A DNA stretch of 64,000 nt from Gemmatimonadota bacterium (GTDB taxonomy: Bacteria; JAAXHH01). The position numbers were made by a program, and so were the translations under genes. The notes under the pieces are model-generated. The model worked only from the letters and a program-made list of their open reading frames with translations, was not told the DNA's origin and did no database searches. This document shows, in pieces, positions 1,435 through 16,209 of this stretch (its first letter is position 1; every line of letters starts with the position of its first letter). The DNA lies in the NCBI GenBank assembly GCA_009835325.1, contig VXWP01000046.1:22315-86314 (forward strand), in the 5' to 3' direction.

Positions 1435-2334
1435 ATGAATTCGACCGAATACCGAAAATACCTCGATCCGATGACCGTGTCCCGGCTTGCCCGGCTGGAT
1501 CTCAAGGCGCGGCTGGTCGTGGAAGGGTTCATCGCCGGGCTGCACAGCAGTCCCTACCACGGGTTCAGCGTCGAATACGCGGAACACCGGCAGTACATGC
1601 CGGGCGATCCCATCAAGCACATCGACTGGAAGGTCTTCGCCAAGTCAGACCGGTTCTACATCAAGGAATACGAAGAAGAAACCAATCTGAAATCCTATAT
1701 CTTCCTGGACGTCAGCGCGTCGATGGAATTCGTGTCTACGGGTATAAGCAAGCTGGAGTACGGGAGATACCTGGCGGCCGCGCTCACCTACCTCATGCTG
1801 AGCCAGCAGGACTCCGTGGGCCTGGTGCTGTACGACGAGCGGATCAGGCAATACGTTCCCCCGCGGTCGGTCCGCAACCATCTGCACATCATTCTGCAAC
1901 GGCTGCACGCCGCGGCGTCCGGATCAGGAACGCGAAGCAGGGCAACGTTTCACTCGCTGGCGGAAAGGATCAAGCGGCGCGGGCTGATCATCATCATATC
2001 CGATCTTTTCGACGAACCCGGGGACATCGTCGACAGCATCCGGCATTTCCGCCATCGAAAACATGAAGTGATCGTGTTTCGCCTGCTAGATCCCGCCGAG
2101 AAGGACTTCGAATTCCGCCATCCCGCCCGTTTCCGCGACATGGAGACCGGGGAAGAGGTGTATACCCACCCGCACGTGATCCGTGAAGCCTACCTGGGGG
2201 ACCTGAAGGAACAGGACGAACTGTACACCCGCGTCTGCCGGGAGAACGCCGCGGACTATCTCAGCCTGGACACCGGCACGCCATTCGACCAGGCCCTGTT
2301 GACCTTCCTCGCAAAGCGCGCCCATTTGGGCTGA
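1435..2334 (+). CDS. DUF58-domain protein (vWA-like), partner of MoxR
   Basis: The 299-residue product matches the DUF58 family: RQYMPGDPIKHIDWKVFAK-type core, then a vWA-like segment beginning FLDVSASMEF, whose DxSxS resembles a MIDAS metal site. DUF58 proteins are regularly encoded next to MoxR ATPases and are presumed to work with them; the precise role is not established. No membrane segment is obvious. I chose the ATG at 1435, which begins MNSTEYRKYLDP as in homologues. The reading frame is open further upstream, but that stretch covers the duplicated moxR 3' end and looks non-coding. Confidence 0.9.
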   Translation: MNSTEYRKYLDPMTVSRLARLDLKARLVVEGFIAGLHSSPYHGFSVEYAEHRQYMPGDPIKHIDWKVFAKSDRFYIKEYEEETNLKSYIFLDVSASMEFVSTGISKLEYGRYLAAALTYLMLSQQDSVGLVLYDERIRQYVPPRSVRNHLHIILQRLHAAASGSGTRSRATFHSLAERIKRRGLIIIISDLFDEPGDIVDSIRHFRHRKHEVIVFRLLDPAEKDFEFRHPARFRDMETGEEVYTHPHVIREAYLGDLKEQDELYTRVCRENAADYLSLDTGTPFDQALLTFLAKRAHLG

Positions 2335-2384
2335 CCGGCGCCCTCCAAGGTTGACGCCCGTGCCCACCTGGGCTGACGGCCGCG
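2320..2384 (+). repeat. Duplicated 3' end of the DUF58 gene
   Basis: The segment GCCCATTTGGGCTGACCGG at 2320-2338, which contains the DUF58 stop codon, recurs imperfectly at 2362-2384 (GCCCACCTGGGCTGACGGC). The period is 42 bp. The second copy lies between the two convergent genes. Confidence 0.7.
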
Positions 2385-2399
2385 CCCGCTGCTAACCGG

Positions 2400-3500
2400 T
2401 CAGATGATCGCCGCTTCATCTTCCCTGGAGAAGAAGTGGGCCCTGGCCATGTTCACGAGGAGCGGCAGTTCCGTGTTAATGGCGGGGTCTACGAAGGCGT
2501 CCACCCTGGCGATGAACGGGTACCGGCCGGTCGTCATGTAGAGGAAAGTCTCGCTTCCCATGGGTTCCACCACTTCGACGGTCGCCTTGATCTGACGGGC
2601 TTCCCGCCAGTCCTTGTTCGCATCCACGGAAGTGATGTCCTCCGGACGGATGCCGAAAGTGACCTCCCGGTCCCGCCAGGGCGACAGGGCCTCCCGCATG
2701 CCGTCCGGAATGGGAAGCCGGAGGCTGCCCTCGTCGAAGGCCGCATGCCCGTTGTCGAAAACGACCCTGCCCTCCAGGAAGTTCATGCCCGGACTGCCGA
2801 TGAAGCCCGCGACGAACCGGTTCGCCGGTTTCTCGTAAAGCTCGAGGGGCGCGGCGACCTGCTGCACCTCGCCGTCTTTCATCACCGCGATCCGGTCGCC
2901 CATGGTCATGGCTTCGACCTGGTCGTGGGTGACGTAGACGATGGTCGCCTCGAGGCTGTTATGGAGTTTGCTGATCTCCGTCCGCATCTGCACGCGCAGC
3001 TTGGCGTCCAGGTTCGAGAGGGGTTCGTCGAAGAGGAACACCTTGGGCTTGCGCACGATGGCGCGGCCCACCGCCACGCGCTGACGTTCGCCGCCCGACA
3101 GCGCCTTCGGCTTGCGGGCGAGGAGATGGCCGATGCCCAGGATGCCGGCGGTCTCGTTGACCCGCGCCTCGATCTCGGCGCGGGGATACTTGCGCAGCTT
3201 GAGCCCGAAGGCCATGTTCTCGTACACCGTCATGTGGGGGTACAGCGCGTAGTTCTGGAACACCATGGCGATGTCCCGGTCCTTCGGCGGGACGTCGTTC
3301 ACGCGTTTCCCGTCGATGTGGATTTCGCCGGAAGTCACTTCTTCCAGCCCGGCGATCATGCGCAGCGTGGTGGACTTGCCGCAGCCCGAGGGGCCGACGA
3401 GAACCACGAACTCCCGATCCTTGATCTCCAGGTTTACGTTGCGGACCACGGTGTTCTTGTCGAACCGCTTGTCCACGTTCTTCAGGACTACATCCGCCAT
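2400..3500 (-). CDS. Sugar-type ABC transporter ATP-binding protein (MalK/UgpC-like)
   Basis: This 366-residue ATPase energises sugar uptake permeases at the inner membrane. Walker A GPSGCGKST, signature LSGGERQRVAVGRA, Walker B VFLFDEPLSNLD and the switch histidine in YVTHDQ are all intact. A C-terminal TOBE/MalK-type domain follows from about residue 240. The ATG at 3500 starts MADVVLKNVDKRF and sits behind CGGAGGAG about 8 nt upstream; a longer frame to 3563 runs through the promoter. No permease or binding protein is nearby, so it may serve several importers, as MsmX does in Bacillus (inference). Confidence 0.93.
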   Translation of the reverse strand: MADVVLKNVDKRFDKNTVVRNVNLEIKDREFVVLVGPSGCGKSTTLRMIAGLEEVTSGEIHIDGKRVNDVPPKDRDIAMVFQNYALYPHMTVYENMAFGLKLRKYPRAEIEARVNETAGILGIGHLLARKPKALSGGERQRVAVGRAIVRKPKVFLFDEPLSNLDAKLRVQMRTEISKLHNSLEATIVYVTHDQVEAMTMGDRIAVMKDGEVQQVAAPLELYEKPANRFVAGFIGSPGMNFLEGRVVFDNGHAAFDEGSLRLPIPDGMREALSPWRDREVTFGIRPEDITSVDANKDWREARQIKATVEVVEPMGSETFLYMTTGRYPFIARVDAFVDPAINTELPLLVNMARAHFFSREDEAAII

Positions 3501-3546
3501 GAAAGCACTCCTCCGGGACCTCTCCGGTTGGTCTGTGAGACTCCCG

Positions 3547-3583
3547 TATTGTGTGACACGCAAGGGTTTTTGTCAATACAATA
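3547..3583 (-). promoter_or_regulatory. Promoter and inverted repeat upstream of the ABC ATPase
   Basis: On the minus strand TTGACA (3576-3571) and CACAAT (3553-3548) are spaced by 17 nt, a good housekeeping-type promoter about 48 nt ahead of the ATG. The same DNA forms an imperfect inverted repeat (TATTGTGTGACA at 3547-3558, TGTCAATACAATA at 3571-3583) that could be a repressor site covering both boxes. The binding protein is unknown. Confidence 0.55.
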
Positions 3584-3620
3584 TCCCCGCCTTCCACGCC
3601 CGGTATCCGCGCGGTTTTAT

Positions 3621-3649
3621 TTGACTTTGCCCCATAAAAACGTTATTTT
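3621..3649 (+). promoter_or_regulatory. Promoter of the OCD-PLP cluster
   Basis: TTGACT (3621-3626), a 17-nt spacer and TATTTT (3644-3649) form a plausible sigma-70 promoter in an AT-rich patch. It lies about 87 nt before the start of the ornithine cyclodeaminase-like gene. Confidence 0.55.
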
Positions 3650-3735
3650 GTCTGCTCATTTTTGGGAAACATTCCACTTGCCTGTTGCGCCGTGCGCAAA
3701 CCCCAGTTAACCGGACTGCCGGGAGGAGTCTTACC

Positions 3736-4683
3736 ATGCCGCTCATCGTCGAACTGGACCAGATCAAGGAAGCCCTCGAAGGCATAGACGTCATTCAGGA
3801 TATCGAAGACGGTTTCGTCGCCTATTCGCAGGGGAAGGTGCAGGTGCCGCCCGTCGGTGAGATGCACTTCGAGGATCCTCCCGGGAACGTGCATATCAAG
3901 TACGGCGCGATCGACGGAGACGACTACTACGTCATCAAGCTGGCCTCCGGGTTCACCGACAACCCGAACGTCGGCGTTCCCCGCGTCCAGGGCATGATGC
4001 TGATCTTCAACCAGCGGACCGGTCAGCCTGTGGCGATACTACTCGACGAAGGGTACCTTACCACGGTGCGCACGGCCGCCATGGGGCCGGTCGTGGCCAG
4101 GGCCCTCGCGCCGAAGAACGTGAGCCGCATCGGCGTATTCGGCACGGGACTCCAGGCGCGCATGCAGGTAGAGTACCTCAAGGGCGTCGTCGACTGTACG
4201 GACGTGATCGCCTGGGGACGTTCCGCCGAGAGCAAGGCCTCCTACAAGAACGAAATGGAAGCCCAGGGATACACCGTCGAGATCACGGATGACGCCGGCG
4301 CCGTGGCGGCGACAAGCAATCTCATCATCATGTCCACGCCGTCCCTTTCACCGCTGCTGACCGCCGACCAGGTGCGTCCCGGTACGCACATCACCGCGAT
4401 GGGCTCCGACACGCCGGACAAGATCGAACTCGATCCTGGCGTCCTCGCGAAGGCCGACGTGGTCGTGGCGGACAGCATTCCGCAGTGCAGGCTGCGCGGC
4501 GAAATCGCACAGGCGATGAAGGCCGGCGCCATAACCGAGGACAAGGTGGTCGAACTCGGAAACGTGATCCAGGATCCGTCCCTGGGCCGTACTTCCGACG
4601 ACCAGATCTCGATCGCCGATTCGACGGGCGTCGCAGTACAGGACATCCAGATTTCCAAAGCCGTCTATCACGCCGTAAAGTAA
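3736..4683 (+). CDS. Ornithine cyclodeaminase / mu-crystallin family protein
   Basis: This 315-residue protein belongs to the OCD/mu-crystallin family of NAD(P)-dependent enzymes acting on amino or imino acids. The hallmark LTTVRTAAMGPVVARALAP segment is followed by the Rossmann motif GVFGTGLQARMQ and a late DVVVADS segment. Members include ornithine cyclodeaminase, ketimine reductases and ectoine-degradation EutC; the substrate cannot be read from sequence. GGGAGGAG lies 7 nt before ATG 3736, fixing the start. It leads a four-gene co-directional run; the next gene starts 11 nt after its stop. Confidence 0.88.
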   Translation: MPLIVELDQIKEALEGIDVIQDIEDGFVAYSQGKVQVPPVGEMHFEDPPGNVHIKYGAIDGDDYYVIKLASGFTDNPNVGVPRVQGMMLIFNQRTGQPVAILLDEGYLTTVRTAAMGPVVARALAPKNVSRIGVFGTGLQARMQVEYLKGVVDCTDVIAWGRSAESKASYKNEMEAQGYTVEITDDAGAVAATSNLIIMSTPSLSPLLTADQVRPGTHITAMGSDTPDKIELDPGVLAKADVVVADSIPQCRLRGEIAQAMKAGAITEDKVVELGNVIQDPSLGRTSDDQISIADSTGVAVQDIQISKAVYHAVK

Positions 4684-4694
4684 GGAGCAATCAC

Positions 4695-5873
4695 ATGGCA
4701 GCGGCCTTCCAGCCTTTCGAACTGGAACGCATCATGTCGGACTGGGAGCAGGTCGTGGAGTACAACCTGTCCGAGAGCGGCGCGCACCCGGTTAAAGTCA
4801 GAGAATTGATCGAACACGATCCGGACATCCTGGACCGTATGCTGGATACCGAACTGGGCTACGGATACGCGAATGGCTCGCCCGAACTGCGGGAGGCCAT
4901 CGCCCAGTACTATCCCGGCGCGACCGCCGAGAACGTCCTGGTGACCATCGGGTGCATCGAGGCCAATTTCATCACGTTCCAGACATTGCTGGAAGGTGGC
5001 GGAGAGGTGGCGGTCCAGGTGCCCTGCTACCTCCAGAGCTGGGGACTCGCGCACAACCTGGGCGCCGTCCGGCGGACGTTCCGCCTCGATCCCGACCGCA
5101 ACTGGGCGCTCGATACGGACAGTCTCGAAGACGCCATCTCGGACGAAACGAAGCTGATCTCCATCTGCAATCCGAACAATCCGTCCGGACAGATCCTGAC
5201 GGAAGCCGAAATGGACGCCGTCGTCCGTGTGGCCGAAGGCAGCGGCGCCTACCTGCTCGCGGACGAGATCTACGCTGGGTCCGAACGGGAACGCGAGGAA
5301 GTATCGCCCACCTTCTACGGCCGGTACGACCGGGTCATCTCTGCAGGCAGCATGTCCAAGTCCTTCGCCATGCCCGGCCTGCGGATCGGCTGGCTCGTCG
5401 GTCCCCAAGACCTGATGAAGCAGCTCTGGATGCGCCACGAGTACCTGACGCTGAGCACGGCCAAGCTGTCCAACCACTTCCTCGCGCCGCTGGCGCTGCG
5501 CCCCGACGTGCGGAAGGCCATCTTCGAGCGGACGCGGGGCTATATAAGGCGCGGATGGGACAACTACCAGACCTGGATCGACGAAAACGCGGACATCCTG
5601 AGTCTCGTGCCGCCCCAGGCGACGGCCATTTCCTTTGTCCGGTACAACCTGAAGACCGATTCCGCGACGCTCGCGAACCGGCTTATCCAGGAGAAATCGG
5701 TGCTCATCGGGCCCGGCGACTACTTCGGCGTGCCCAACCATCTCCGCATCAGCTACGGCCTGCCGCCCGACTACCTGAACGAGGGGTTGCGCCGGATCTC
5801 CAGCCTGCTCCGCCAGGTCGCCGAGGAAGAGGCCGCCGGATCCGAAAACGAGCGCGGCGCGGCCGCCGGCTGA
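4695..5873 (+). CDS. Class I/II PLP-dependent aminotransferase
   Basis: The 392-residue product is a fold-type-I aminotransferase. ELGYGYANGSPELREAIA is the typical N-terminal region, SICNPNNPSGQIL the substrate/PLP loop, LLADEIYAG carries the PLP aspartate, and the Schiff-base lysine lies in SAGSMSKSFAMPGLRIGW. The N-terminal FELERIMSDWE is reminiscent of aminotransferases often labelled capreomycidine-synthase-like, but I cannot assign that reaction. AAGGAG precedes ATG 4695 by 7 nt. Position behind the OCD-like gene suggests a shared amino-acid pathway. Confidence 0.88.
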   Translation: MAAAFQPFELERIMSDWEQVVEYNLSESGAHPVKVRELIEHDPDILDRMLDTELGYGYANGSPELREAIAQYYPGATAENVLVTIGCIEANFITFQTLLEGGGEVAVQVPCYLQSWGLAHNLGAVRRTFRLDPDRNWALDTDSLEDAISDETKLISICNPNNPSGQILTEAEMDAVVRVAEGSGAYLLADEIYAGSEREREEVSPTFYGRYDRVISAGSMSKSFAMPGLRIGWLVGPQDLMKQLWMRHEYLTLSTAKLSNHFLAPLALRPDVRKAIFERTRGYIRRGWDNYQTWIDENADILSLVPPQATAISFVRYNLKTDSATLANRLIQEKSVLIGPGDYFGVPNHLRISYGLPPDYLNEGLRRISSLLRQVAEEEAAGSENERGAAAG

Positions 5874-5891
5874 TCACGGGGAGGGCCTGCC

Positions 5892-7043
5892 ATGAAGCCG
5901 TCCCTGGATCCGCTGGTACCGGTTGACGAGTTCCCAGTAGCGCAGACCTGCACGTATATCAACGCGGCCAACGTGACGCCCATGTACCGTCCGGCGGCCG
6001 CAGCGATCACCGAATGGTACCGGGACGTCGCCGAGCACGGCAGCAACCACTTCGACGAAGAAGCCGAAGCCACGGTCTTCGACGAACTCCACCGGCAGGC
6101 AGCCCGGCTCTTCAACGCTTCTCCGACAGACATCGCCGCGGGATCCAGCACCACGGAACTCCTGAGTTCCCTTGCCTGGGCGGTCATTCCCGGCGCGGAG
6201 GCCAACGTTGTCAGCACCGACGTTTCCTTCCCCGCCTCGGTCTACCCCTGGCGTCGCGTCGCCAACCACACGGGCTGCGAGATCCGGCTTGCGCACGCGC
6301 GGGGAGAGACCGTCGATCCGGATCGCGTCAGGGACCTCGTGGACGACAATACGGCGGTGGTGGCCCTGTCCCATGTGGAGTTCCGCAGCGGCCAGCGCTG
6401 GGACCTCGCCGCCTTTGCAGAGATCGCACACCGTCACGGCGCACTGCTGGTCGTGGATGCCACGCAGTCCGCGGGCGCGGTGCCCATCGACGCGCCCGGC
6501 ATGGGCGTGGACGCCGTGGCCGCCGGGGCGTACAAGTGGCTGTGCGGCCCATTCGGCGTGGCCGTCATGTACCTCGCGCCGCACCTCTACACGAGCCTCG
6601 AACCCGGCCTGGTGGGTTTTCGAAGTCAGAAGGACATCTGGGATATCCGCACCGATCCGCCCGACTACCCGGAGGACGCGTCCCGGTTCGAGTTCAGCAC
6701 CATGGCTTACGGGCTGTCCGGCGGGTTCGCGAAATCGATCGGGTTCCTCGTGGACACGGGGATCGACCGGATCTTCGAACATAACCAGGTCCTGGCCGAC
6801 CACCTCATCGACGGCCTGGCCGCGATCGGCGCCGAGGTCACCTCCCCGCGGGATGCCGACCAGCGTTCGGCCATCGTCACCGCCCGTTTTCCGGGCCGCG
6901 ATGTCTCCGAAGTGGCTCGGTACCTGAAGCAGGCCAGCGTCATGGTCGCCCTGCGCGGCCCCGTGATCCGCTTCTCGCCCCACCTGTACAACCGGATGGC
7001 CGACGTGGAACGGGCGCTTGAAGTGATTTCCGGAATGCCCTGA
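5892..7043 (+). CDS. Class V aminotransferase (cysteine desulfurase/kynureninase-like fold)
   Basis: This 383-residue protein shows the class V pattern: SSTTELLSSLAWAV binding PLP phosphate, ALSHVEFRSGQRWDL, LLVVDATQSAGAVPID with the PLP aspartate, and the lysine in AAGAYKWLCGPFG. No persulfide cysteine loop typical of IscS/NifS is evident, so a transaminase, lyase or epimerase role is more likely than sulfur mobilisation (inference). GGGGAGG lies 9 nt before ATG 5892, and only 18 nt separate it from the preceding gene. Confidence 0.85.
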   Translation: MKPSLDPLVPVDEFPVAQTCTYINAANVTPMYRPAAAAITEWYRDVAEHGSNHFDEEAEATVFDELHRQAARLFNASPTDIAAGSSTTELLSSLAWAVIPGAEANVVSTDVSFPASVYPWRRVANHTGCEIRLAHARGETVDPDRVRDLVDDNTAVVALSHVEFRSGQRWDLAAFAEIAHRHGALLVVDATQSAGAVPIDAPGMGVDAVAAGAYKWLCGPFGVAVMYLAPHLYTSLEPGLVGFRSQKDIWDIRTDPPDYPEDASRFEFSTMAYGLSGGFAKSIGFLVDTGIDRIFEHNQVLADHLIDGLAAIGAEVTSPRDADQRSAIVTARFPGRDVSEVARYLKQASVMVALRGPVIRFSPHLYNRMADVERALEVISGMP

Positions 7044-7080
7044 TTCCGATACCGGACCGGTCCGAAAAAAAAAACCAACC

Positions 7081-8541
7081 ATGTACAAGTACCAGTGGTA
7101 CCAGTCGATCTACGACAACTTTCCCGCCATTGCTGAAGAAGCCCGGAAATACGGCGAGAAAATCGGCACGCTGAAGCTGAAGCAGGACATCGGCCTGTAC
7201 GCCGGAAGCTCGGCCAGACCGGGCAACCTGCCCGATTACGTACTCGACGCGATCGTGGAAGCCAACCGGGGCGGCAAGACCTACCCGGTCCGGGTGATCG
7301 AGGACGAACTACGCGAAGTCGTCAAGGACGTCTACGGCGACGAGTACGACGCGGTGGCCGCCAATACCTGCGAAGCACTGCTGCGCCTCACGCTCGAAAC
7401 CCTGTGCGCGCCGCCCTCCATGCGCCACGGCGACATCTACCGCGGCCGAGTGCTCATGCCCTACGGGGAGGATTACGAGTGGATCGGCGGATACGGCCGG
7501 GCCTTCCCGCCGCGGTACAAGAACCTCCTCGTGGACCGGACCATCGCCGGCGGCGAACTGGGCATCGAGAACAAGAGCCTGGCGAACCTCGAGACGCTCT
7601 ACGTCCGCATGGCCGGCGCGAAGTACGATCCCCACGGGATCCGATACAATCCCACCTCGCTGCTCACCGCCGTCGACGTGGACGGCACCATCGAAAACGT
7701 GAAGAAAGCAGCCGAAAGAAACGCTTCGCTGCTCACGGGCATCGCCACGGTGGGGTACGACACCCCCAGCTACGGGCTCGGAGAGCAGGACGAGCAAGGC
7801 GCGCCTATTCTCCTGAAGAAACTGGCCGACGTGGCCCGGGATTACGACGTACCATACATTGTCGACACTGGCGGCTCGATCCCCATCGTGGGCATGGACC
7901 CGAGGGACATCGGCTGCGACATCATCACCTTCAGCATGGACAAGCCCGGCCGCGCACCCGCGTCGGGACTGCTCATCGGCAGGGAAGAGACCATCAACCC
8001 AATCCGCAAGGGCATGGGCCTCGGCGGCCAGCGCTACGGCGAGCTGTCCTCCCACGGAAAGGCGGTCTATACCTTCAGCGATCCGGGCCGGGACACCCTG
8101 GTGGGCCTGACCGCGTACCTGAAGGTCCTGCGCGACCGGCCCCGACTGGTAACCGACCCCGTGGACCGGTTCCACGAAATCATCGTGGAGGAGTTCTCGC
8201 AGCTGGAGCCCGCACGCTTCCGCGACGACCTGATCTTCACGAAGACCTACCAGCTGGGAGGCACCGAACTCAACTACGAACGCACGTGGAAGGACGGCGC
8301 CTTCGGCATCCCGATCTTCAACCTCGAAGACCTGTGGGCCAACACCAACCCCATCGTGCTCGCCCAGGAGCACATGGGCGTCGAACCCGCCACGATCTAC
8401 AGTGGGAAGATGTTCCTCGGTCCCGGCTTGGGCACGTTAGACCGGGAGGGGAACCTGATCGAGGAATACGCGGTGCTCGGCGCGAAGACCCTGGTCAAGG
8501 CCGTGGAAATCGTGTGCCGGCATGCGGGGTTGGAGGATTGA
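7081..8541 (+). CDS. PLP-dependent enzyme, SelA/aminotransferase-like fold, unassigned
   Basis: The 486-residue product has a long N-terminal arm (MYKYQWYQSIYDNFPAI), then a fold-type-I core: VAANTCEALLRLTLETL, the aspartate in VPYIVDTGGSIPIVG and a likely PLP lysine in FSMDKPGRAPASGLLIG. The lysine context resembles SelA-like lyases more than standard transaminases. I do not recognise the exact family. It is the fourth gene of the cluster, 37 nt after the class V gene. The ATG follows an A-rich run rather than a clear Shine-Dalgarno sequence. Confidence 0.75.
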   Translation: MYKYQWYQSIYDNFPAIAEEARKYGEKIGTLKLKQDIGLYAGSSARPGNLPDYVLDAIVEANRGGKTYPVRVIEDELREVVKDVYGDEYDAVAANTCEALLRLTLETLCAPPSMRHGDIYRGRVLMPYGEDYEWIGGYGRAFPPRYKNLLVDRTIAGGELGIENKSLANLETLYVRMAGAKYDPHGIRYNPTSLLTAVDVDGTIENVKKAAERNASLLTGIATVGYDTPSYGLGEQDEQGAPILLKKLADVARDYDVPYIVDTGGSIPIVGMDPRDIGCDIITFSMDKPGRAPASGLLIGREETINPIRKGMGLGGQRYGELSSHGKAVYTFSDPGRDTLVGLTAYLKVLRDRPRLVTDPVDRFHEIIVEEFSQLEPARFRDDLIFTKTYQLGGTELNYERTWKDGAFGIPIFNLEDLWANTNPIVLAQEHMGVEPATIYSGKMFLGPGLGTLDREGNLIEEYAVLGAKTLVKAVEIVCRHAGLED

Positions 8542-8554
8542 CTGTTACGTTGTC

Positions 8555-8583
8555 TTGACGACGAAGTACTTGCATGTGATATT
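8555..8583 (+). promoter_or_regulatory. Promoter of the hicAB module
   Basis: TTGACG (8555-8560), a 17-nt spacer and GATATT (8578-8583) form a likely promoter directly upstream of hicA. Its -10 region overlaps the first copy of a repeated ATGTGATAT motif. Confidence 0.5.
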
Positions 8584-8605
8584 GAAATGTGATATCATAT
8601 GACAT
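8574..8605 (+). promoter_or_regulatory. Probable HicB operator
   Basis: ATGTGATAT occurs twice as a direct repeat (8574-8582, 8587-8595). The second copy lies in a 19-bp near-perfect palindrome ATGTGATATCATATGACAT (8587-8605), symmetric except for single positions. It overlaps the -10 box and the hicA start, where autorepression by HicB would be expected. Confidence 0.6.
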
Positions 8606-8858
8606 GAACAGTCGTCAGCGGTAAATTCTGGAAGCGGTTTTTACCGACCCGATATCCTCGAACATAGAATGGCGACAAATCGAGACTCTTCTTGTTTCAG
8701 TGGGTTGTGAAGCAATAGAAGGTCGTAGATCCAGAATAGCTTTCAAGTACGGGACGCATCGAGCAGATTTTCATCGACCTCATCCGGGCAAAGAGGCTAA
8801 ACCCTATCAGGTACGCGCTGCACGGGAGTTTCTTACATGTATGGGAGTAACACCATGA
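8604..8858 (+). pseudogene. hicA: hicA toxin gene interrupted by a nonsense codon
   Basis: Read from ATG 8604 the frame gives MNSRQR, then TAA at 8622-8624, then 77 further residues in the same frame ending MGVTP and TGA at 8856-8858. The downstream part is a clear HicA-type mRNA interferase: EWRQIETLLVSVGCE, IEGRRSR and the family block RADFHRPHPGKE with its catalytic-type histidines. Family members have a lysine where the TAA stands, so one AAA-to-TAA change explains it. No good ATG or SD restarts translation before residue 30. The last base pairs overlap hicB as ATGA. A sequencing error or a low-level readthrough toxin remains possible. Confidence 0.82.
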
Positions 8859-9193
8859 AGCCGATGCGCTACAGGGGATATCCAGCACGCATCGAATACA
8901 GCGATGAGGACGGATGTTTCGTCGGCCGCGTGGCTGGTATTCGCGACATCATCACGTTTCACGGAGAAAGCGTTGGAGAAGTTCGCGAGGCTTTTGAAGA
9001 GGCGGTTGAGTTCTACCTGGAAAGCTGTGACGAACGGGGCGAGGCTCCGAACAAGCCTTATTCCGGGAAACTCCTGTTGCGAATAGATCCTGAAATCCAC
9101 GCAGCAGTAGCCGAGGCGGCCGATGTCGACGGCGTGAGTATAAACCAGTGGGCTGGAGAAAAGCTGTCAGAGGCGGTTGTTCAAAAACACTGA
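8855..9193 (+). CDS. hicB: HicB-family antitoxin
   Basis: The 112-residue product has the two HicB parts: an N-terminal partial RNase-H-like domain (GYPARIEYSDEDGCFVGRV, about residues 7-50) and a C-terminal ribbon-helix-helix-like DNA-binding segment (LLLRIDPEIHAAVAEAA, about 75-108). HicB neutralises HicA and represses its own operon. ATG 8855 overlaps the hicA TGA in the classic ATGA arrangement, preferred over the in-frame ATG at 8837. The gene is intact although its toxin is interrupted. Confidence 0.9.
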   Translation: MKPMRYRGYPARIEYSDEDGCFVGRVAGIRDIITFHGESVGEVREAFEEAVEFYLESCDERGEAPNKPYSGKLLLRIDPEIHAAVAEAADVDGVSINQWAGEKLSEAVVQKH

Positions 9194-9238
9194 TTCCGGA
9201 AAGTTCGTCGGATACCCTTCCTTAACCTGCACCGCGTA

Positions 9239-10633
9239 TCAATTCCATCCCACGTCTTCCAGCACAAGCGACTCCATTTCATCCCACTGGCCGGAGGGCA
9301 GATCCTCCTCGCACAACTGCGCCAGTTCTTTCTCGAAGAAAAACGCCTCCTCGCCGAAGGCCGGCTCGAGGTCGTCCAGCCAGATGGCTTCTCTATCGTA
9401 CCGGGCAAAAAACGGCCGCAGGACCCAGTCGGGATTGCGGCCCTGCAGGAACCGGAGGGCGATGATCTTCTCCCCGTGGATCTCGCTGATGCCCAGTACG
9501 TGGACCTTGCCGGGATGGGCCGACATGCTGGGTCCGCGCACGGTCCGGCAGATGCCGCTAACCTGCTGATAGGCGTTCTGAAAGATCTCCCAGGCCTCGA
9601 CCATCGGCACGGCGAAGAAATGCTGAACGCCGGTGTCCCGCACCATGAACATGTAGTACGGCACCATCCCCAGGTCCACCTGCCTGCGCCACATGGCCGC
9701 CCACGTATCCGGATCGTCGTTGATGTTCCTCAGGATGGGCGACTGCGTGTAAACCTTCGCTCCCGTTCCGCGAATCCGGCTGACCGCCTCTGACACCACG
9801 TCGGGCCGGAGTTCGGCGGGATGGCTGCAATGGGCCATGATGGCCAGGTGCTTGCCGGCGCGGTTGATCCGTTCGAACAGCGCCAGCACGTCGTCCGCAT
9901 CCGGGTCGGTGAGGTACTTGTAAGGCCAGTAGGCCAGCGATTTCGTCCCGATCCGGATCGTGTGCAGATTGGGGAGATCGGCCTTCAGCAACGCATCGAT
10001 ATACACGCTGAGGTTCTTTGCCCGCATGACCATGGGATCGCCGCCCGTGAAAAGCACATCGGTGACCTGGGGATTGTCTTCGAGGTATCTGATGAGACTT
10101 TCGACCTCGCGGCTGGCGAACTTCAGTTCATCGATGCCCACGAACTGCGGCCAGCGAAAGCAGAATGTACAGTAGGCGTGGCAGGTCTGGCCCTGGGAAG
10201 GGAAGAACAGGACCGTTTCCCGGTACTTGTGTTGCATGCCGTCCAGTTTCTCGTTGTCCTCCCTGGGGACGTTGTGCTCGAGCTGACCCGCGGGCTGTGG
10301 GTTCAGATCCCATCGGATCCGGTTCACGGTCCGTGCCATTTCCGCTTCCCCCGCCCCCTTTTTCACCAGGGCCGCCACCTCGTCGAAGTGGTCTGGCGAC
10401 AGCATTTTCCGTTGCGGAAAGGTGAGCTGGAACATGGGATCGTCAGGGATGTTCTCCCACTGGATCAGGTGCTCCACCACGTGGGAATTGGTCCGGAAAG
10501 GCAGAACCCGCGCCACGACTTCCATTTCGAATTTCAGGTCGTCCGGGAGTCTGTCGATCTGAGGTATTTTTCGGTAGTTCCTGAGATCGTATATCCGAAA
10601 CCTGGGGGTCTTGCCGTTCATGTTTCTGATCAT
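9239..10633 (-). CDS. KamA-like radical SAM aminomutase
   Basis: This 464-residue protein resembles lysine 2,3-aminomutase (KamA), which shifts amino groups using SAM, a [4Fe-4S] cluster and PLP. The cluster motif is CHAYCTFC (CxxxCxxC, about residues 155-162), followed by DVLFTGGDPMVM. The late SMSAHPGKVHVLG carries the probable PLP lysine. The N-terminal region (FRIYDLRNYRKIPQI) differs from classical KamA, so the substrate may be another amino acid (inference). ATG 10633 has AAGGAAAG 5-7 nt upstream. It stands alone, convergent with hicB. Confidence 0.85.
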   Translation of the reverse strand: MIRNMNGKTPRFRIYDLRNYRKIPQIDRLPDDLKFEMEVVARVLPFRTNSHVVEHLIQWENIPDDPMFQLTFPQRKMLSPDHFDEVAALVKKGAGEAEMARTVNRIRWDLNPQPAGQLEHNVPREDNEKLDGMQHKYRETVLFFPSQGQTCHAYCTFCFRWPQFVGIDELKFASREVESLIRYLEDNPQVTDVLFTGGDPMVMRAKNLSVYIDALLKADLPNLHTIRIGTKSLAYWPYKYLTDPDADDVLALFERINRAGKHLAIMAHCSHPAELRPDVVSEAVSRIRGTGAKVYTQSPILRNINDDPDTWAAMWRRQVDLGMVPYYMFMVRDTGVQHFFAVPMVEAWEIFQNAYQQVSGICRTVRGPSMSAHPGKVHVLGISEIHGEKIIALRFLQGRNPDWVLRPFFARYDREAIWLDDLEPAFGEEAFFFEKELAQLCEEDLPSGQWDEMESLVLEDVGWN

Positions 10634-11333
10634 GGTACTTTCCTTACTGATAACCGGGATCCGGCGCCCGGATATCGAAACCGCCCCGCGTGCTTCCTAC
10701 AACACGACTCGATTCGGGTAGTGACAGGGTGGGGCGTCGGACTATCAATTGCAACGCGGACCCATGAGTGACGGCTCAGACCCAAAGAAGTCGGCTCGGA
10801 ACGGAGAAGGGCGGCTCGGACCCATAGAAAGTGGCTTGGACCCGTGAAGTTCGATCCGCGCGGGGCGAAAAGAAAAGCCGCGATGGGATCGGAATCCAGG
10901 CGGCTTCAGGCACGGATGCCCGTGCATCCACGAGCCGCCATCGCCCCGGGTGGCACAAACAAGAAGGCCGTCCGGGCCTAAAATAGAGAGAAAGCCGTTC
11001 CGCGAGAACTATCGGAGACGCTCAACTAGTGACGCTCAATGAGCGCGAATCCCGAGGGATACGTCTTTGTCGCGCAGTTACCCGCTGTCGCCGGTTAGTT
11101 ATGTGGGAGACCATTTTCGGCGGGGGCAACAACCGCGATAGAGCAGGCTACGCAGACACTGCCTCGCGCCGCGGGAGGACGATACGTCCACTTAAACCTC
11201 CTTTGGGTGAGGGCGTGTTCAGGGGAAGATCGGTACAGTTTCAAGATAACCGAAGGCGCACCGCGCTTCAAGTCCTTTCGACCAATGGCGCGAAGCCTGG
11301 CCTTCTTGCACCTGTGCTTTCCAGGAGAAGGAA
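10634..11333. other. 700-bp intergenic region without a supported gene
   Basis: No open frame here has convincing composition or a ribosome site; a 102-codon plus-strand frame at 11029 shows no recognisable motif. The region holds a 20-bp tandem repeat array (10754-10851), a long hairpin with arms GGCGGCT/AGCCGCC at 10899-10905/10933-10939 around a nested GCACGG/CCGTGC stem, a short stem AGGCC/GGCCT at 10965-10979 that could end minus-strand transcription, and a 14-bp duplication GACGCTCAACTAGT at 11017-11044. Confidence 0.5.
10754..10851. repeat. 20-bp imperfect tandem repeat array
   Basis: Four units begin at 10772, 10792, 10812 and 10832, with consensus close to CGGCTCGGACCCATAGAAGT. A partial fifth copy lies at 10754-10771. 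The period is not a multiple of three, so it is probably non-coding. Confidence 0.8.
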
Positions 11334-12095
11334 CTAACCGAACTTTGCGAACCAGTCCGTTCCGAACAGCCGCTCTGCCGCCGCGATGCGGTCCGCGCTT
11401 CCGAGATCCGCCCACCGCGCTTCTTCGGCCCGATAGGCTCGAATTGGGCTGCCCGTACCCGCCAGATCCAGGAAGAAGTCGATGATCGAAAAGGGACCGG
11501 TACTGGTCATCTTGCGCAACGCCTCTGGGGACACGACGTAGACGCCCATGAAGGGCAGGGCGGTAACGGGACCCTCCATCGACCGGACCGTGCGCGTCTC
11601 TCCCGTGATATCCGAACGCCAGCCGCCCAGCCGTCCCGCCCTATCGAAAAGCAGGTGACGCGAACTCTTCCTTCCCTTCACGGCCAGGGTGGCCAGAGCG
11701 TCCGAAGCCGAACCGGCATTCGAGGCGCGGTGGACCGTCATCAATTCGGAAAGATCCAGGTCGGTCAGCACGTCCACGTTGTGCACCAGGAACGGCTCCT
11801 CGCGGTCGAAGAACCACGCGGCCTTGCGCACCCCGCCGCCCGTGCCCATGATCTCCTCCTCCACGGATACGGTCAGCGAAACACCGGGGCCATCGTGCGC
11901 GGCCGCGAAGGCCTCGATCTGATCCGCGAAATGGTGGGCGTTGATGATGATGTCGGTGAAACCATGGCGGGCGAGCCGCCTGATCACCCAGTAAAGCATG
12001 GGCCTGCCGGCCACTGTCACGAGCGCTTTGGGCCGGGCGTCGGTGAGGGGCCGGAGCCGGGTGCCCAGGCCCGCCGCAAGGATCATGGCCTTCAC
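11334..12095 (-). CDS. murU: MurU-like N-acetylmuramate-1-phosphate uridylyltransferase
   Basis: This 253-residue nucleotidyltransferase carries the signature MILAAGLGTRLRPLTDARPKA-type P-loop, MGTGGGVRKA and the VHNVDVLTDLD metal site. In cell-wall recycling MurU converts MurNAc-1-phosphate to UDP-MurNAc. The assignment rests on the family plus the adjacent AmgK-type kinase. The start is GTG 12095, with AGGAGG about 5 nt upstream, overlapping the kinase stop as GTGA. Another NDP-sugar pyrophosphorylase activity is the main alternative. Confidence 0.85.
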   Translation of the reverse strand: MKAMILAAGLGTRLRPLTDARPKALVTVAGRPMLYWVIRRLARHGFTDIIINAHHFADQIEAFAAAHDGPGVSLTVSVEEEIMGTGGGVRKAAWFFDREEPFLVHNVDVLTDLDLSELMTVHRASNAGSASDALATLAVKGRKSSRHLLFDRAGRLGGWRSDITGETRTVRSMEGPVTALPFMGVYVVSPEALRKMTSTGPFSIIDFFLDLAGTGSPIRAYRAEEARWADLGSADRIAAAERLFGTDWFAKFG

Positions 12096-13528
12096 GAATC
12101 CTCCTGCTCCCGGTGCCTCAGGCGGACCACGACCCCCTGCCGGCCCGCCAGGTGCGCCGCCAGCCGCTCCGCGAAGTACACCGATCGGTGCTGGCCGCCC
12201 GTGCATCCGAAGGCGACGGTCAGGTCCGTGAACCCGCGACGCAGGTGGTGATCGACCGCCCGGTCGACCATGGTCCGCACGTCCCCCAGGAAGGACCGTG
12301 CCTCCTCGAGTTCGTCCAGGAAGGCCGCCACCGGTGCGTCCTTTCCCGTCAGATCCGCGTATGCCGGAATGCGGCCGGGGTTCTTCACGATCCGGCAGTC
12401 GAAGACGAACCCTCCGCCGTTTCCGCTCGGATCCCGGGGCAGGCCGAGATGATAGGAGAAACTCCAGAGGTGGACGGTCAGTCCTTCACCGGAAACCTCG
12501 CCCATACGCCGGAGCGCCGGATCGTCGACGATGCGCGACCAGGCACGGTTCAGCTCAGGCAGGTCGACTGGCAGGCCGGCCCGCTCGAGCAACCCCTCGA
12601 GGTTACGGACGCCGTGGGAGATGCTGGTCAGGAAGTGGGACTTGCCTTCGTACAGGCCACGGTACCCGTAAGCGCCCAGCGCCTGCATGAGACGGACCAG
12701 GGCGTAACCGTAATAGTGCGCGAGGAACGCATCCCGGCGAAGGGGGGCATACTCGCCGGCCGCTTCGACATAGTGATCCAGGAGTTCGTCCCGGATCTCC
12801 CACGGGATGTCGGCCTTGGCATCCTGCAGGAGAGACGCTACGTCGTATTGAAGCGCGCCCTGCCGCCCGCCCTGGTAGTCGATGTAATGCGGATGTCCCT
12901 CATGCCACATGATGTTGCGGGACTGGAAGTCGCGGTACAGGAAGTAACGTGTATCCGCTTCCAGGAGGAACGCCGTGAGCCGCTCGAAATCGTTTTCGAG
13001 GGCCTGCTCGTCGAAGTCGACAGGCACGAGCTTCAGGAAGTGGTACTTGAAATAGTTCAGGTCCCACCGGATGGACTGGGCGTCGAACCGGCTCCTGGGG
13101 TAACAGACCGAAAAGTCCAGGTCCTCCGCCGCGGTGACCTGGAATCGGGGCAGGTCGTCGAGCACCTGCCTGTACATCGCGACCATTTGATCCGAGAAAG
13201 CGCCTTCCTCGGCGCGGGTGGCGGCCACCCGGCTGAACAAGGTCTCGTCACCCAGGTCCTGCTGCAGGTATACGCCCTGTTCCAGGTCCTCGGCGAAGAT
13301 CTCGGGCACCGGCAGGCCGTGGCGGTTGAAGTGGCGCGAAAGCGCAAGGAAGGCGACGTTCTCCCGGCGGTCGGAATTCGCCGCGCCGATAACGGTCGAT
13401 TCACCTTCCAACAACCGGTAGTACTGCCGTCTCGAGCCGTCCGCGCCCAGATTGGCGATGCGTGTCGGCGCACGGCCGAACGTGCGGCGATAGAGACGTG
13501 CCAGCCTGTCCTGGGCATCACGAGTCAT
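12092..13528 (-). CDS. amgK: AmgK-like sugar kinase fused to a RapZ C-terminal domain
   Basis: The 478-residue product has two parts. Residues 1 to about 335 are an aminoglycoside-phosphotransferase-like kinase of the AmgK type, with LYRDFQSRNIMWHEG as catalytic loop and YIDYQGGRQGALQYDVASLL as metal segment; AmgK phosphorylates MurNAc/GlcNAc at C1. Residues about 345-478 match the C-terminal domain of RapZ (TVAFGCTGGQHRSVYFAERL), which in enterobacteria senses glucosamine-6-phosphate. The N-terminal P-loop domain of RapZ is absent. The gene overlaps murU by 4 bp, so coupled translation is likely. The fused domain may regulate the kinase (inference). Confidence 0.88.
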   Translation of the reverse strand: MTRDAQDRLARLYRRTFGRAPTRIANLGADGSRRQYYRLLEGESTVIGAANSDRRENVAFLALSRHFNRHGLPVPEIFAEDLEQGVYLQQDLGDETLFSRVAATRAEEGAFSDQMVAMYRQVLDDLPRFQVTAAEDLDFSVCYPRSRFDAQSIRWDLNYFKYHFLKLVPVDFDEQALENDFERLTAFLLEADTRYFLYRDFQSRNIMWHEGHPHYIDYQGGRQGALQYDVASLLQDAKADIPWEIRDELLDHYVEAAGEYAPLRRDAFLAHYYGYALVRLMQALGAYGYRGLYEGKSHFLTSISHGVRNLEGLLERAGLPVDLPELNRAWSRIVDDPALRRMGEVSGEGLTVHLWSFSYHLGLPRDPSGNGGGFVFDCRIVKNPGRIPAYADLTGKDAPVAAFLDELEEARSFLGDVRTMVDRAVDHHLRRGFTDLTVAFGCTGGQHRSVYFAERLAAHLAGRQGVVVRLRHREQEDS

Positions 13529-13565
13529 GGTCGCCTGTCCCGGCCGGGTGCGGTCCGGCGTCTCA

Positions 13566-14540
13566 TCAACCAGGCCGCTTCATGATCAGGAGCAAGGGTC
13601 TGTGATCGGTGGGATACATCCGGCGCGCGTCGTTGTTGTTGTCGAGAATGACGTAGACCCGGTCGCGGTCCATGGCGAGCCCCTCCGCCGTCTTCGCGCC
13701 GAACTGTTCGTGTTGATAGAGGTATTCCGGGTCGTTGACGATATGGGCGAAGGACCAGATCGTCGAGGGGCTGTCCACGTCCAGGTACCGGATGGTCTTC
13801 CGGATGGTCGCGGTGCTTCGCTGCAGGATGTATACGTTCTCGACCTCCCGGTGCAAACCCGTGTAACTGTTCGCCGAGCCATGATTGGCGATCTCCACGA
13901 TCCGCTGCACCGGCGCCATGTCGACTTCGATCAGGCCGCAGGGCTCCCGTTCCGCGGTGACCAGGAACCGGTCCCGCGCCATCAGTGTGATGCCTTCGAG
14001 ATACCCGCCGCGCGTCTGGAAGAGACCCGCCGATGCGCCTACTTTCCGGAGGCTCGTGGTGACCCAGGACGCCTTCTTTCCGTCCGCGTCGACCTTCAGA
14101 ATGGCGAACGCCCCTTCGCTGGCGAGATAGAAGCTTCCGTCGTCATCGCGGGTGATGCCCTCCAGGTCCAGCCTGAACACCCCGAAGGGTTTTGGCGCTT
14201 CGAACCGGATATGCGGAACGAATACCGCGGCATCCTCCCGGAGTTCGATCCGGAAGATGGTATCGTCGTGCTTGTCGGAAACGGTGTACAGGGTGTCGTT
14301 ATGGATGAAGAGTCCCGATGGCTGGTTGGATTCGGGACCTTCCACGGGGAGGACGCTGATGGCTTCGAGGAGGACCGGGTTTTCCTGCGCTGCGGCCAGC
14401 CCGGGCATCCAAAGCAGGGCCGATGCGCATAGGGCGAGCGGCGCGAGTAGGAGGCGGAATCCGAGCGGCTGGCGTGGCGCGGCCGGTAAACGAGGGGCGT
14501 CCGGACCCCGCTTTCTCCCGGAAATCCTCCTACTCCCCAT
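13566..14540 (-). CDS. Secreted esterase-like/phytase-like beta-propeller protein
   Basis: The 324-residue product has an N-terminal signal segment (hydrophobic LLLAPLALCASALLWMPG ending near AAAQ). The mature part resembles the SdiA-regulated / esterase-like-of-phytase propeller family: SGLFIHNDTLYTVSDKHDDTIF, LEGITRDDDGSFYLASEG, TAEGLAMDRDRVYVILDNNND. Activity in this family is poorly defined. The ATG overlaps the 3' end of the upstream binding-protein gene by 11 nt, so the two are probably co-transcribed. The long basic leader suggests a later start is possible. Confidence 0.75.
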   Translation of the reverse strand: MGSRRISGRKRGPDAPRLPAAPRQPLGFRLLLAPLALCASALLWMPGLAAAQENPVLLEAISVLPVEGPESNQPSGLFIHNDTLYTVSDKHDDTIFRIELREDAAVFVPHIRFEAPKPFGVFRLDLEGITRDDDGSFYLASEGAFAILKVDADGKKASWVTTSLRKVGASAGLFQTRGGYLEGITLMARDRFLVTAEREPCGLIEVDMAPVQRIVEIANHGSANSYTGLHREVENVYILQRSTATIRKTIRYLDVDSPSTIWSFAHIVNDPEYLYQHEQFGAKTAEGLAMDRDRVYVILDNNNDARRMYPTDHRPLLLIMKRPG

Positions 14541-16209
14541 CTTCCACCTCGGCGATGTATAACTTGTGCCAGCGGAAGGAACCCACGGTGCCGTCGTCGT
14601 TTACGGCATAGCCCTTCAGCCAGGGCTTCCGGAGCTGCAGGCCCATCTTGTGATAGAGGAACGCGCCGGGATAGTCCGCCACGTGTACGGCCGAGGCTTC
14701 ACGGTACAGACTTTCCCGGATCTCCGGATTCAGTTCGGCCGCGGCCGCATCCACGAGGCGGTCGAAGGTGGGATTGTGCCAGTCCTGCCGGCCGTGGCCC
14801 CGGGGCTGCGAGTGCCAGATCATGTCCAGTATGTTGCGGGGGTCGAGGAAATCGGCGCCGAAGGCGATCAGCCCGAGGTTCATGTTCCACTCGTACAGAT
14901 GGTCCATGTAGGTGTGCAGGTCGGCCGTCCGGATGTCCACGTCGACGCCGAGATGCTCTTTCAGCATGCTTTGTATCGCCACGCCGATCAGGCGGTCGGA
15001 GGGCGTAGGCGCCCTGAGCCACAGCTCCTGGCGGGGGAAACCCTGTCCACCCGGATATCCGGCCTCCTGCATCAGTTGCCGGGCCCGTTCGGGATCGAAG
15101 CCCTGTACCGCGGCATGCGTGTCGCCCTCGAATTCCCTGAAGCCGGGCGGGATCATGGAATAGGCCGGTACGGCCCCTCCCCGAAGGATGATGTTGCAGA
15201 TGTTGTCGCGGTCCATCACCCGCGTGAAGGCTTCCCGGACGCGAATGTCGTTGAAGGGCGGCAGCTGCGTCCTGAAGAAGAGATACCAGGTATTCAGTCC
15301 GTGAAAGCGCACGAGATCTTGCTTCAGGTCGGGATCACGCTCGATGCGTTCCAGGTCGTTCACGTCCACGTTCTCCATGTCGACCTCGTCGCTCTCGTAG
15401 GGAAGGATGGTGGCCGCGGCCGCGTTGCGAAAAGGGTGTATCACCTTCTCCAGGAAGGGCTTGTGGGGGCCGTTGTAGTAGGGATTGGGAACAAGCGTCA
15501 TGTGGCTGCCGTTGACCCACTCCGTGACCATAAAACCGGAATTCGTAATGATGTTCTGCGGTTCGGTCCACTTGCGGCCGTATTTGTCCACGAGCCGCTT
15601 CGGCACCGGCATGGCGTCGCCGAAAGAAACGATATGGGGCAGGTAAGGCGCCCGCTTTTCCGTCTCGATGACCAGGGTCGAATCGTCCACGGCACGGATG
15701 CCCAGGGACGTGAGATCCTTGTTCTCCCCCTTGACGATCGCTTCGGCGTTCTTGATGTCGTAATAGAAGAAGGCGTAGATGTTGGTGGATTCAGGATCAA
15801 GCATCCGGCGGTAGGAATACACGAAGTCATGGGCCGTCAGCGGCGATCCGTCGCTCCAGCGCATCCCGGACCTGAGATTGAAGGTCCAGACTATCCCGTC
15901 ATCCGAGCCCCAGCTGTGCGCGGCGCCCGGGATCGGGTTCCAGTGCTCGTCCTTGAACAGCAGGGCCTCGAAGGGCAGGATCGTCTGCTCGGTATCGTAG
16001 GGCTCGATACTGGGGTCCAGGCTCTTGGGCTCCGGACTCATGGACCGCAGCACCTGACGGGAGGCGTCCACGGCGTCGTCGGGCAACGTCACGCCGATCG
16101 AGTTGACGCGGCCGCCTTCCGTGGCGGTCCCCGTCTGTTCCCCGCCACGTTCACTTTCGCCGCAGGAAACCAGCAAGAGGATCGATACAAGTACTGCGGG
16201 AGTGCGCAT
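14530..16209 (-). CDS. Peptide/oligosaccharide ABC transporter substrate-binding lipoprotein (OppA-like)
   Basis: This 559-residue family-5 extracellular solute-binding protein starts with a lipoprotein signal (MRTPAVLVSILLLVSC, acylated Cys at 16). Family features follow: SPEPKSLDPSIEPYDTEQTI, the WTFNLRSGMRWSDGSPLTAHD motif and a C-terminal lobe with DFLDPRNILDMIW. It would capture oligopeptides or similar ligands for an ABC importer. No permease or ATPase genes adjoin it. HtpG lies 52 nt upstream on the same strand. Confidence 0.9.
   Translation of the reverse strand: MRTPAVLVSILLLVSCGESERGGEQTGTATEGGRVNSIGVTLPDDAVDASRQVLRSMSPEPKSLDPSIEPYDTEQTILPFEALLFKDEHWNPIPGAAHSWGSDDGIVWTFNLRSGMRWSDGSPLTAHDFVYSYRRMLDPESTNIYAFFYYDIKNAEAIVKGENKDLTSLGIRAVDDSTLVIETEKRAPYLPHIVSFGDAMPVPKRLVDKYGRKWTEPQNIITNSGFMVTEWVNGSHMTLVPNPYYNGPHKPFLEKVIHPFRNAAAATILPYESDEVDMENVDVNDLERIERDPDLKQDLVRFHGLNTWYLFFRTQLPPFNDIRVREAFTRVMDRDNICNIILRGGAVPAYSMIPPGFREFEGDTHAAVQGFDPERARQLMQEAGYPGGQGFPRQELWLRAPTPSDRLIGVAIQSMLKEHLGVDVDIRTADLHTYMDHLYEWNMNLGLIAFGADFLDPRNILDMIWHSQPRGHGRQDWHNPTFDRLVDAAAAELNPEIRESLYREASAVHVADYPGAFLYHKMGLQLRKPWLKGYAVNDDGTVGSFRWHKLYIAEVEDGE

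Follow-up and report, generated by a model that had tools for sequence, protein, structure and literature searches.

Several described systems resemble one part or another of the locus studied here. GntC, the (S)-gamma-hydroxy-L-arginine cyclodehydratase of the guanitoxin pathway, falls in one clade of fold-type-I pyridoxal phosphate (PLP) enzymes with the capreomycidine synthases VioD and OrfR; in GntC, N52 acts on the leaving group, T84 and H250 form the guanidinium pocket and E9 is the catalytic glutamate (PMC10367076). The beta-hydroxyaspartate cycle for glyoxylate assimilation combines an aminotransferase, a dehydratase, an aldolase and an iminosuccinate reductase (PMC11166783). We analysed a 64,000-nucleotide stretch (the window) of contig VXWP01000046.1 from a Gemmatimonadota bacterium (assembly GCA_009835325.1), in which four genes at positions 3621-8541 encode a protein of the ornithine cyclodeaminase family (here OCD) and three different PLP enzymes (here AT1, AT5 and PLP4). 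The nearest public records to the host are metagenome-assembled genomes (MAGs) called Candidatus Latescibacterota or Gemmatimonadetes. The host, itself a MAG of Latescibacterota/Gemmatimonadota type, is a marine or sponge-associated bacterium.

The four genes form an intact, conserved set, and we hold with moderate confidence that their operon encodes a module for processing a polar amino acid imported from outside, most likely to break it down. Amino-acid dissimilation clusters are a known kind of system; what is new here is this gene set together with one orphan enzyme family. The initial annotation knew of no standard pathway with such a set, and we likewise found no homology of all four proteins to one characterised operon in the models, structures and papers searched, an absence that is no proof in itself.

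Layout and selection

The operon comprises the following features, all on the forward strand.

3621..3649 (+), candidate sigma-70-like promoter of the operon (TTGACT-17 nt-TATTTT, 9/12 consensus match)
3736..4683 (+), OCD, ornithine-cyclodeaminase/mu-crystallin family NAD(P)-dependent oxidoreductase, 315 aa (PF02423, K68/R112/D225)
4695..5873 (+), AT1, fold-type-I PLP enzyme of the GntC / capreomycidine-synthase / PRK07324 clade, 392 aa (PF00155, active-site mapping)
5892..7043 (+), AT5, class-V-fold PLP enzyme without the desulfurase cysteine, 383 aa (PF00266, KYNU_C)
7081..8541 (+), PLP4, orphan fold-type-I PLP enzyme, 486 aa, with D262 and K288 as inferred cofactor residues (AlphaFold, homologue alignment)

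The four intact open reading frames (ORFs) are co-directional, with gaps of 11, 18 and 37 nt (OCD/AT1, AT1/AT5 and AT5/PLP4), exactly as first annotated. OCD starts at ATG 3736, preceded by a conserved GGGAGGAG ribosome-binding site at 3721-3728; the mechanically called ORF begins earlier, at TTG 3685. For the upstream promoter that the initial annotation had assumed, a candidate can be named at 3621-3649 by its consensus match, its -35 hexamer being invariant in eight genus-mates and its -10 hexamer kept only in part. No known RNA family, riboswitch or other, was found in 2000-11500. Changes in all four genes fall mostly at codon position 3 (16-25% at position 3 and 2-3% at position 2 against L006; 52-61% and 5-16%, respectively, against L013, a locus of the same family), and these counts establish that purifying selection acts on OCD, AT1, AT5 and PLP4.

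Families of the four enzymes

The families first assigned to three of the proteins, OCD, class I and class V, are borne out by matches to PF02423 (203 bits, cut-off 24), PF00155 (164 bits) and PF00266 (145 bits), respectively. By this match and by its Lys/Arg/Asp active-site residues K68, R112 and D225, which are invariant in orthologues, OCD is classed by sequence in the OCD/mu-crystallin superfamily. Its best NCBIfam model is PRK06823 (407.8 bits, under the cut-off of 438), and its closest relatives in the PDB are the archaeal alanine dehydrogenase 1omo and the iminosuccinate reductase 6rqa. Every subfamily cut-off is missed (score/cut-off: PRK07589 123/350, EutC 255/472, BhcD 159/500, ala_DH_arch 208/409), giving no membership in ornithine cyclodeaminase proper, EutC, BhcD or archaeal alanine dehydrogenase. 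OCD shares the fold, the three active-site residues and a full-length match with PRK06823, EutC, archaeal alanine dehydrogenase and BhcD, but lies under all of their cut-offs, whereas a homologue on S. meliloti pSymA (57% identity to OCD) does pass PRK06823 (499 vs 438). Ectoine use was considered and rejected, as OCD is under the EutC cut-off and the operon has no EutB-type (fold II) protein.

AT1 scores under the cut-offs of GntC (256/415), VioD (217/390.9) and PRK07324 (280), and its best PDB matches, 8fft/8ffu, are GntC structures; from these similarities it is a member of the GntC/VioD/PRK07324 clade. It keeps the equivalents of GntC E9, S25, N158, D186, Y189, K219, R227 and R346, the catalytic glutamate, carboxylate and PLP residues being E11, S28, R351 and K222, of which E11, K222 and R351 are invariant in 12 homologues. 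Unlike GntC, however, AT1 has neither the leaving-group Asn nor the guanidinium-pocket Thr and His: N52 is replaced by Tyr56 (Tyr also in all homologues), T84 by Ile88 (Ile, Ala or Ser in 11/12 homologues, Thr in one) and H250 by Leu253 (aliphatic in homologues). Because of these changes AT1 is unlikely to be an arginine cyclase, and its sequence suggests that it could act as a transaminase or beta/gamma-lyase. Its AlphaFold model, with a predicted local distance difference test (pLDDT) score of 53.8, was too poor to use. AT1 homologues also lie near Rieske oxygenases of different subfamilies in Ruegeria and G205 (L164, L166, L193).

AT5 passes KYNU_C (33 bits vs cut-off 27) and stays far under the cut-offs of the SufS (111/475) and kynureninase (TIGR01814, 66.8/246.4) models. 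Residues H161, D189, Q192, K215 and R360 are invariant. Its only cysteines are C20, C129 and C218, the last of which, near the K215 lysine, is the sole invariant one; no persulfide cysteine was found in the C-terminal mobile-loop region, which does not fit a cysteine desulfurase. AT5 shares the fold, the lysine, the Asp/Gln motif and a KYNU_C-type C-terminus with the SufS/CsdA desulfurases and kynureninase, but differs from them in model scores and in the missing mobile-loop cysteine.

The description of the fourth enzyme as one of no clear family stands: PLP4 reaches no Pfam or NCBIfam cut-off (Aminotran_5, 20.5 bits vs 21.5), no Pfam model matched its Variovorax homologue, and its structural neighbours are remote. 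The AlphaFold model (pLDDT 79.7, predicted template-modelling (TM) score 0.85) has fold type I, with a Foldseek probability of 1.0 to type-I enzymes; the best solved neighbours, MJ0158, SepCysS, SelA, SHMT and SufS, give TM scores (query length) of 0.38-0.54 at 12-19% identity. In alignment, K288 corresponds to the lysine of SufS and D262 to its aspartate; both residues are unchanged throughout 13 homologues with identities down to 40%. On this model PLP4 is a fold-type-I PLP enzyme in which K288 would be the Schiff-base lysine and D262 the aspartate at the pyridine nitrogen.

The label "SelA-like" did not survive, since a Cys/Met-lyase-like or SufS-like assignment is equally supported and the match to each of these families is confined to the lysine/aspartate core. 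With DgaE, SelA, SepCysS and MJ0158, SHMT and the Cys/Met lyases PLP4 has the type-I fold and the D...SxDK core in common, but it has no significant full-length sequence match to them: TIGR01437 (DgaE) scores 21 against a cut-off of 385, over residues 245-310 only, and a profile search of solved structures reached only the core around 237-313. Identity with SelA or DgaE was rejected, both being sub-threshold and no closer than the Cys/Met lyases or SufS.

Conservation and gene neighbourhoods

The four-gene order is kept in every genus locus with a contig covering it, in L013 and in L011, of the same order. In G012 all four genes are present on three contigs (OCD and AT1 behind an M24 peptidase; AT5; PLP4), so that linkage is not absolute and the set is still retained. 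G014, an 83%-complete genome of the same order, has an APC permease, AT1 and PLP4 in a row; neither an OCD nor an AT5 orthologue was found in it at that completeness. Outside the order, a sample of about 368 genomes has the AT1 clade in 8, PLP4 in 4 and an orthologue of AT5 in 1.

All four genes recur within 13 kb in L014, a groundwater Gemmatimonadota MAG (OCD 39% identity over 297 aa, AT5 56%, PLP4 58%, AT1 47%), accompanied by GntR/FCD, an APC permease, M20-type peptidases, Ldh2, EamA, a DDAH-like protein and a D-aminoacylase with a lipoprotein-like N-terminus. G430 and G610 have the arrangement PLP4-APC permease-AT5-AT5', with OCD (60%) about 16 kb upstream, adjoining a D-aminoacylase and CapA in G430, and AT1 (41%) on a separate contig. 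In G344, AT5 (54%), AT1 (39%) and OCD (43%) lie on three contigs, AT5 beside a Na/Ala symporter, and no PLP4 was found. The initial annotation had named scattering of the genes in relatives as evidence against its proposal; scattering does occur, in G012 and, for AT1, in G430, and both keep the full set.

Beyond these genomes, a plasmid of Mesorhizobium sp. 113-3-3 (NZ_AP023245.1) carries homologues of OCD (53% identity), AT1 (39%) and AT5 (49.6%) within 5.8 kb, without PLP4, next to a Lys/Arg/Orn-type ATP-binding cassette (ABC) transporter/binding protein, RidA and an N-carbamoylase-family hydrolase. Chance is a very unlikely cause of AT5 standing beside OCD-AT1 there, judging from the sequence matches, because only two AT5 matches at E<1e-40 occur in 72,556 plasmid records, one of them being within this OCD-AT1 cluster. 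OCD-AT1 pairs, with more distant OCD partners (22-39% identity), also occur in Agrobacterium, Enterobacter, Pararhizobium and Streptomyces. In Agrobacterium and Enterobacter their neighbours are hydrolases and genes of amino-acid ABC transporters; PAS_6 regulators stand beside them in Pararhizobium and Enterobacter, and the ast arginine operon also lies next to the pair in Enterobacter. The Streptomyces AT1-OCD cluster contains a 2-oxoglutarate (2OG)-Fe dioxygenase, a diaminopimelate epimerase and a molybdopterin oxidoreductase.

PLP4 has recurrent partners of its own. In Variovorax PLP4 and then RidA come after an ABC transporter and GntR; in G207 PLP4 neighbours a glycine/sarcosine-oxidase-like flavoprotein, a transporter read from its sequence as TRAP-type, and a PAS_6 regulator. 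One group of PLP4 homologues comes from genomes whose anaerobe-type lifestyle is read from their sequences. In all five loci of this group seen (L015, L060, L061, L062, L063) a DUF6917 gene lies directly upstream of PLP4, and RidA and a B12-binding protein each occur nearby in three. When the B12-binding protein was considered as a candidate glutamate mutase, only its B12 domain matched solved structures; it has 605-611 aa, and its C-terminal part has no assigned family. RidA-type proteins hydrolyse enamines and imines, and we propose from the PLP4-RidA association that PLP4 is an ammonia-lyase or eliminase releasing an imine or enamine.

Several further observations concern the surroundings of these genes. 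In L013, an MjaI-type restriction endonuclease and an N4/N6 DNA methylase are inserted between AT1 and AT5 (7136-8668), and in L110 two tandem AT5 copies lie behind PLP4 and an APC permease (12000-14700). YheO-like PAS_6/HTH_22 regulators stand beside both OCD-AT1 pairs and PLP4-RidA (L165, L171, L062), possibly as a common regulator type. Downstream of the operon in the window lie a solitary HicB-family protein (8837-9193, +), with no adjoining HicA-like ORF evident, and a KamA-family radical S-adenosylmethionine protein (9239-10633, -; 464 aa) that is under every aminomutase cut-off. The KamA-family gene is convergent to the operon in most genus-mates and not so in L013 or L011. Neither protein was accepted as an operon member, the KamA-like gene being on the opposite strand and neither being near the set in L013 or L011.

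A proposed amino-acid-processing module and its alternatives

The amino-acid-processing module that we favour draws its support from synteny across phyla (L014, G430, G610, G014 and Mesorhizobium) and from co-inheritance of the genes when unlinked. Relatives of the set accompany amino-acid transporters, acylase/carbamoylase hydrolases, GntR/LysR/PAS regulators and RidA, and the amino acid handled may be acylated, carbamoylated, D-configured or leaving-group-bearing. From the observed integrity, conservation, co-occurrence and families of the genes we infer the reactions, the catabolic direction and the common pathway. As a working order, import of a polar amino acid would be followed, where needed, by removal of its acyl or carbamoyl group, after which elimination or deamination by PLP4 or AT1 would yield an unsaturated or cyclic imine. 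More generally, the steps assigned to AT1, PLP4 and AT5 would be transaminations, beta/gamma-eliminations or ammonia-lyase reactions, with the amino acid or fragments of it as substrate. OCD would reduce or oxidise the resulting imine, enamine or 2-keto acid (a comparable job may fall to a RidA-type imine deaminase where OCD is absent), and AT5 would cleave or transaminate a downstream fragment. The best reading of a functional set for which we found no characterised counterpart is still of the kind put forward in the initial annotation, a route interconverting an unusual amino acid or an imine, with a cyclic imine as a possible substrate.

A number of points weigh against such a module. Each of its steps is predicted; in G000 the operon does not adjoin the transporter that is closest to the permease of G014; and the accessory hydrolases vary by lineage, so the substrate may vary too. 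The anaerobe-type PLP4 genomes have no AT1 homologue at E<=1e-40, and PLP4 may therefore have an independent job. The Streptomyces AT1-OCD cluster with its 2OG-Fe dioxygenase looks biosynthetic, and together with the Rieske neighbours of AT1 homologues in G205 and Ruegeria it leaves room for a biosynthetic or oxygenase-first route.

Such a route would make a non-proteinogenic amino acid, with AT1 as a GntC- or VioD-like ring former on a hydroxylated amino acid, OCD as the redox enzyme, and AT5 and PLP4 in tailoring. We regard this as unlikely, despite the top scores of AT1 to GntC, VioD and PRK07324, its closest solved structure (GntC; PMC10367076) and its retained catalytic Glu, given that the N52, T84 and H250 equivalents are lost, that the operon in the window has no oxygenase, nonribosomal peptide synthetase or exporter, and that in other genomes the set stands among permeases, ABC importers and hydrolases.

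Alternatively, OCD-AT1, AT5 and PLP4 might be separate nitrogen-metabolism sub-modules that share an operon in this lineage and do not form one pathway. The single unit first annotated is found whole in the genus, L013, L011 and L014, whereas OCD-AT1, OCD-AT1-AT5 and PLP4-RidA also occur alone, AT5 stands beside a Na/Ala symporter, and the G012 genes are spread over three contigs. Even so, G012 retains all four genes though unlinked, Mesorhizobium brings three of them together again and L014 all four, and the arrangement holds from the genus through the family to the order, which makes independent sub-modules rather improbable.

It is very unlikely that the module serves the use of arginine or of an analogue such as canavanine, D-arginine or methylated arginine; AT1 would then be a gamma-lyase or transaminase, and OCD would act as a dehydrogenase of the iminoarginine type. 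OCD-family DauB and PAS-type DauR serve D-arginine use and offer a lead only. Lys/Arg/Orn-type binding proteins adjoin OCD(-AT1), L014 has a DDAH-like protein, the ast operon lies by OCD-AT1 in Enterobacter, and a PLP-dependent canavanine gamma-lyase is reported from Rhizobiales by work cited in PMC11018352; against this, AT1 does not conserve the residues by which GntC contacts the guanidinium group, and the binding-protein family is broad, with a match under its cut-off. A variant of the beta-hydroxyaspartate cycle (BhcA-D), alike at first sight in having one OCD-family reductase and three PLP enzymes, and with BhcD among the closest solved relatives of OCD, is largely refuted and can hardly be upheld: the BhcD model scores 159 vs 500 on OCD and the BhcA model 39 vs 650 on AT5, no dehydratase or aldolase model matched among the listed families of the four operon proteins, and all three PLP enzymes here are type I, whereas BhcB and BhcC are of fold types II and III.

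Returning to the amino-acid-processing module, we tentatively extend it to an uncharacterised pathway for a non-standard amino acid, common to Latescibacterota, Gemmatimonadota and Rhizobiales, in which PLP4 would found a new fold-type-I PLP family of ammonia-lyases or eliminases with RidA- or OCD-type imine handling, including members next to DUF6917 and a B12-binding protein in anaerobe-type genomes. The literature searched contained no paper joining OCD with capreomycidine synthase and none naming DUF6917, and the S. meliloti locus tags tried gave no usable match. If correct, this reading would offer a defined set of genes with which to test an amino-acid route outside all curated models, in almost wholly uncultured bacteria, for which the Mesorhizobium and Sinorhizobium homologues would be a cultivable stand-in. 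It would also add an orphan family of PLP enzymes whose conserved partners, RidA and DUF6917, give a basis for guessing its reaction and assaying it.

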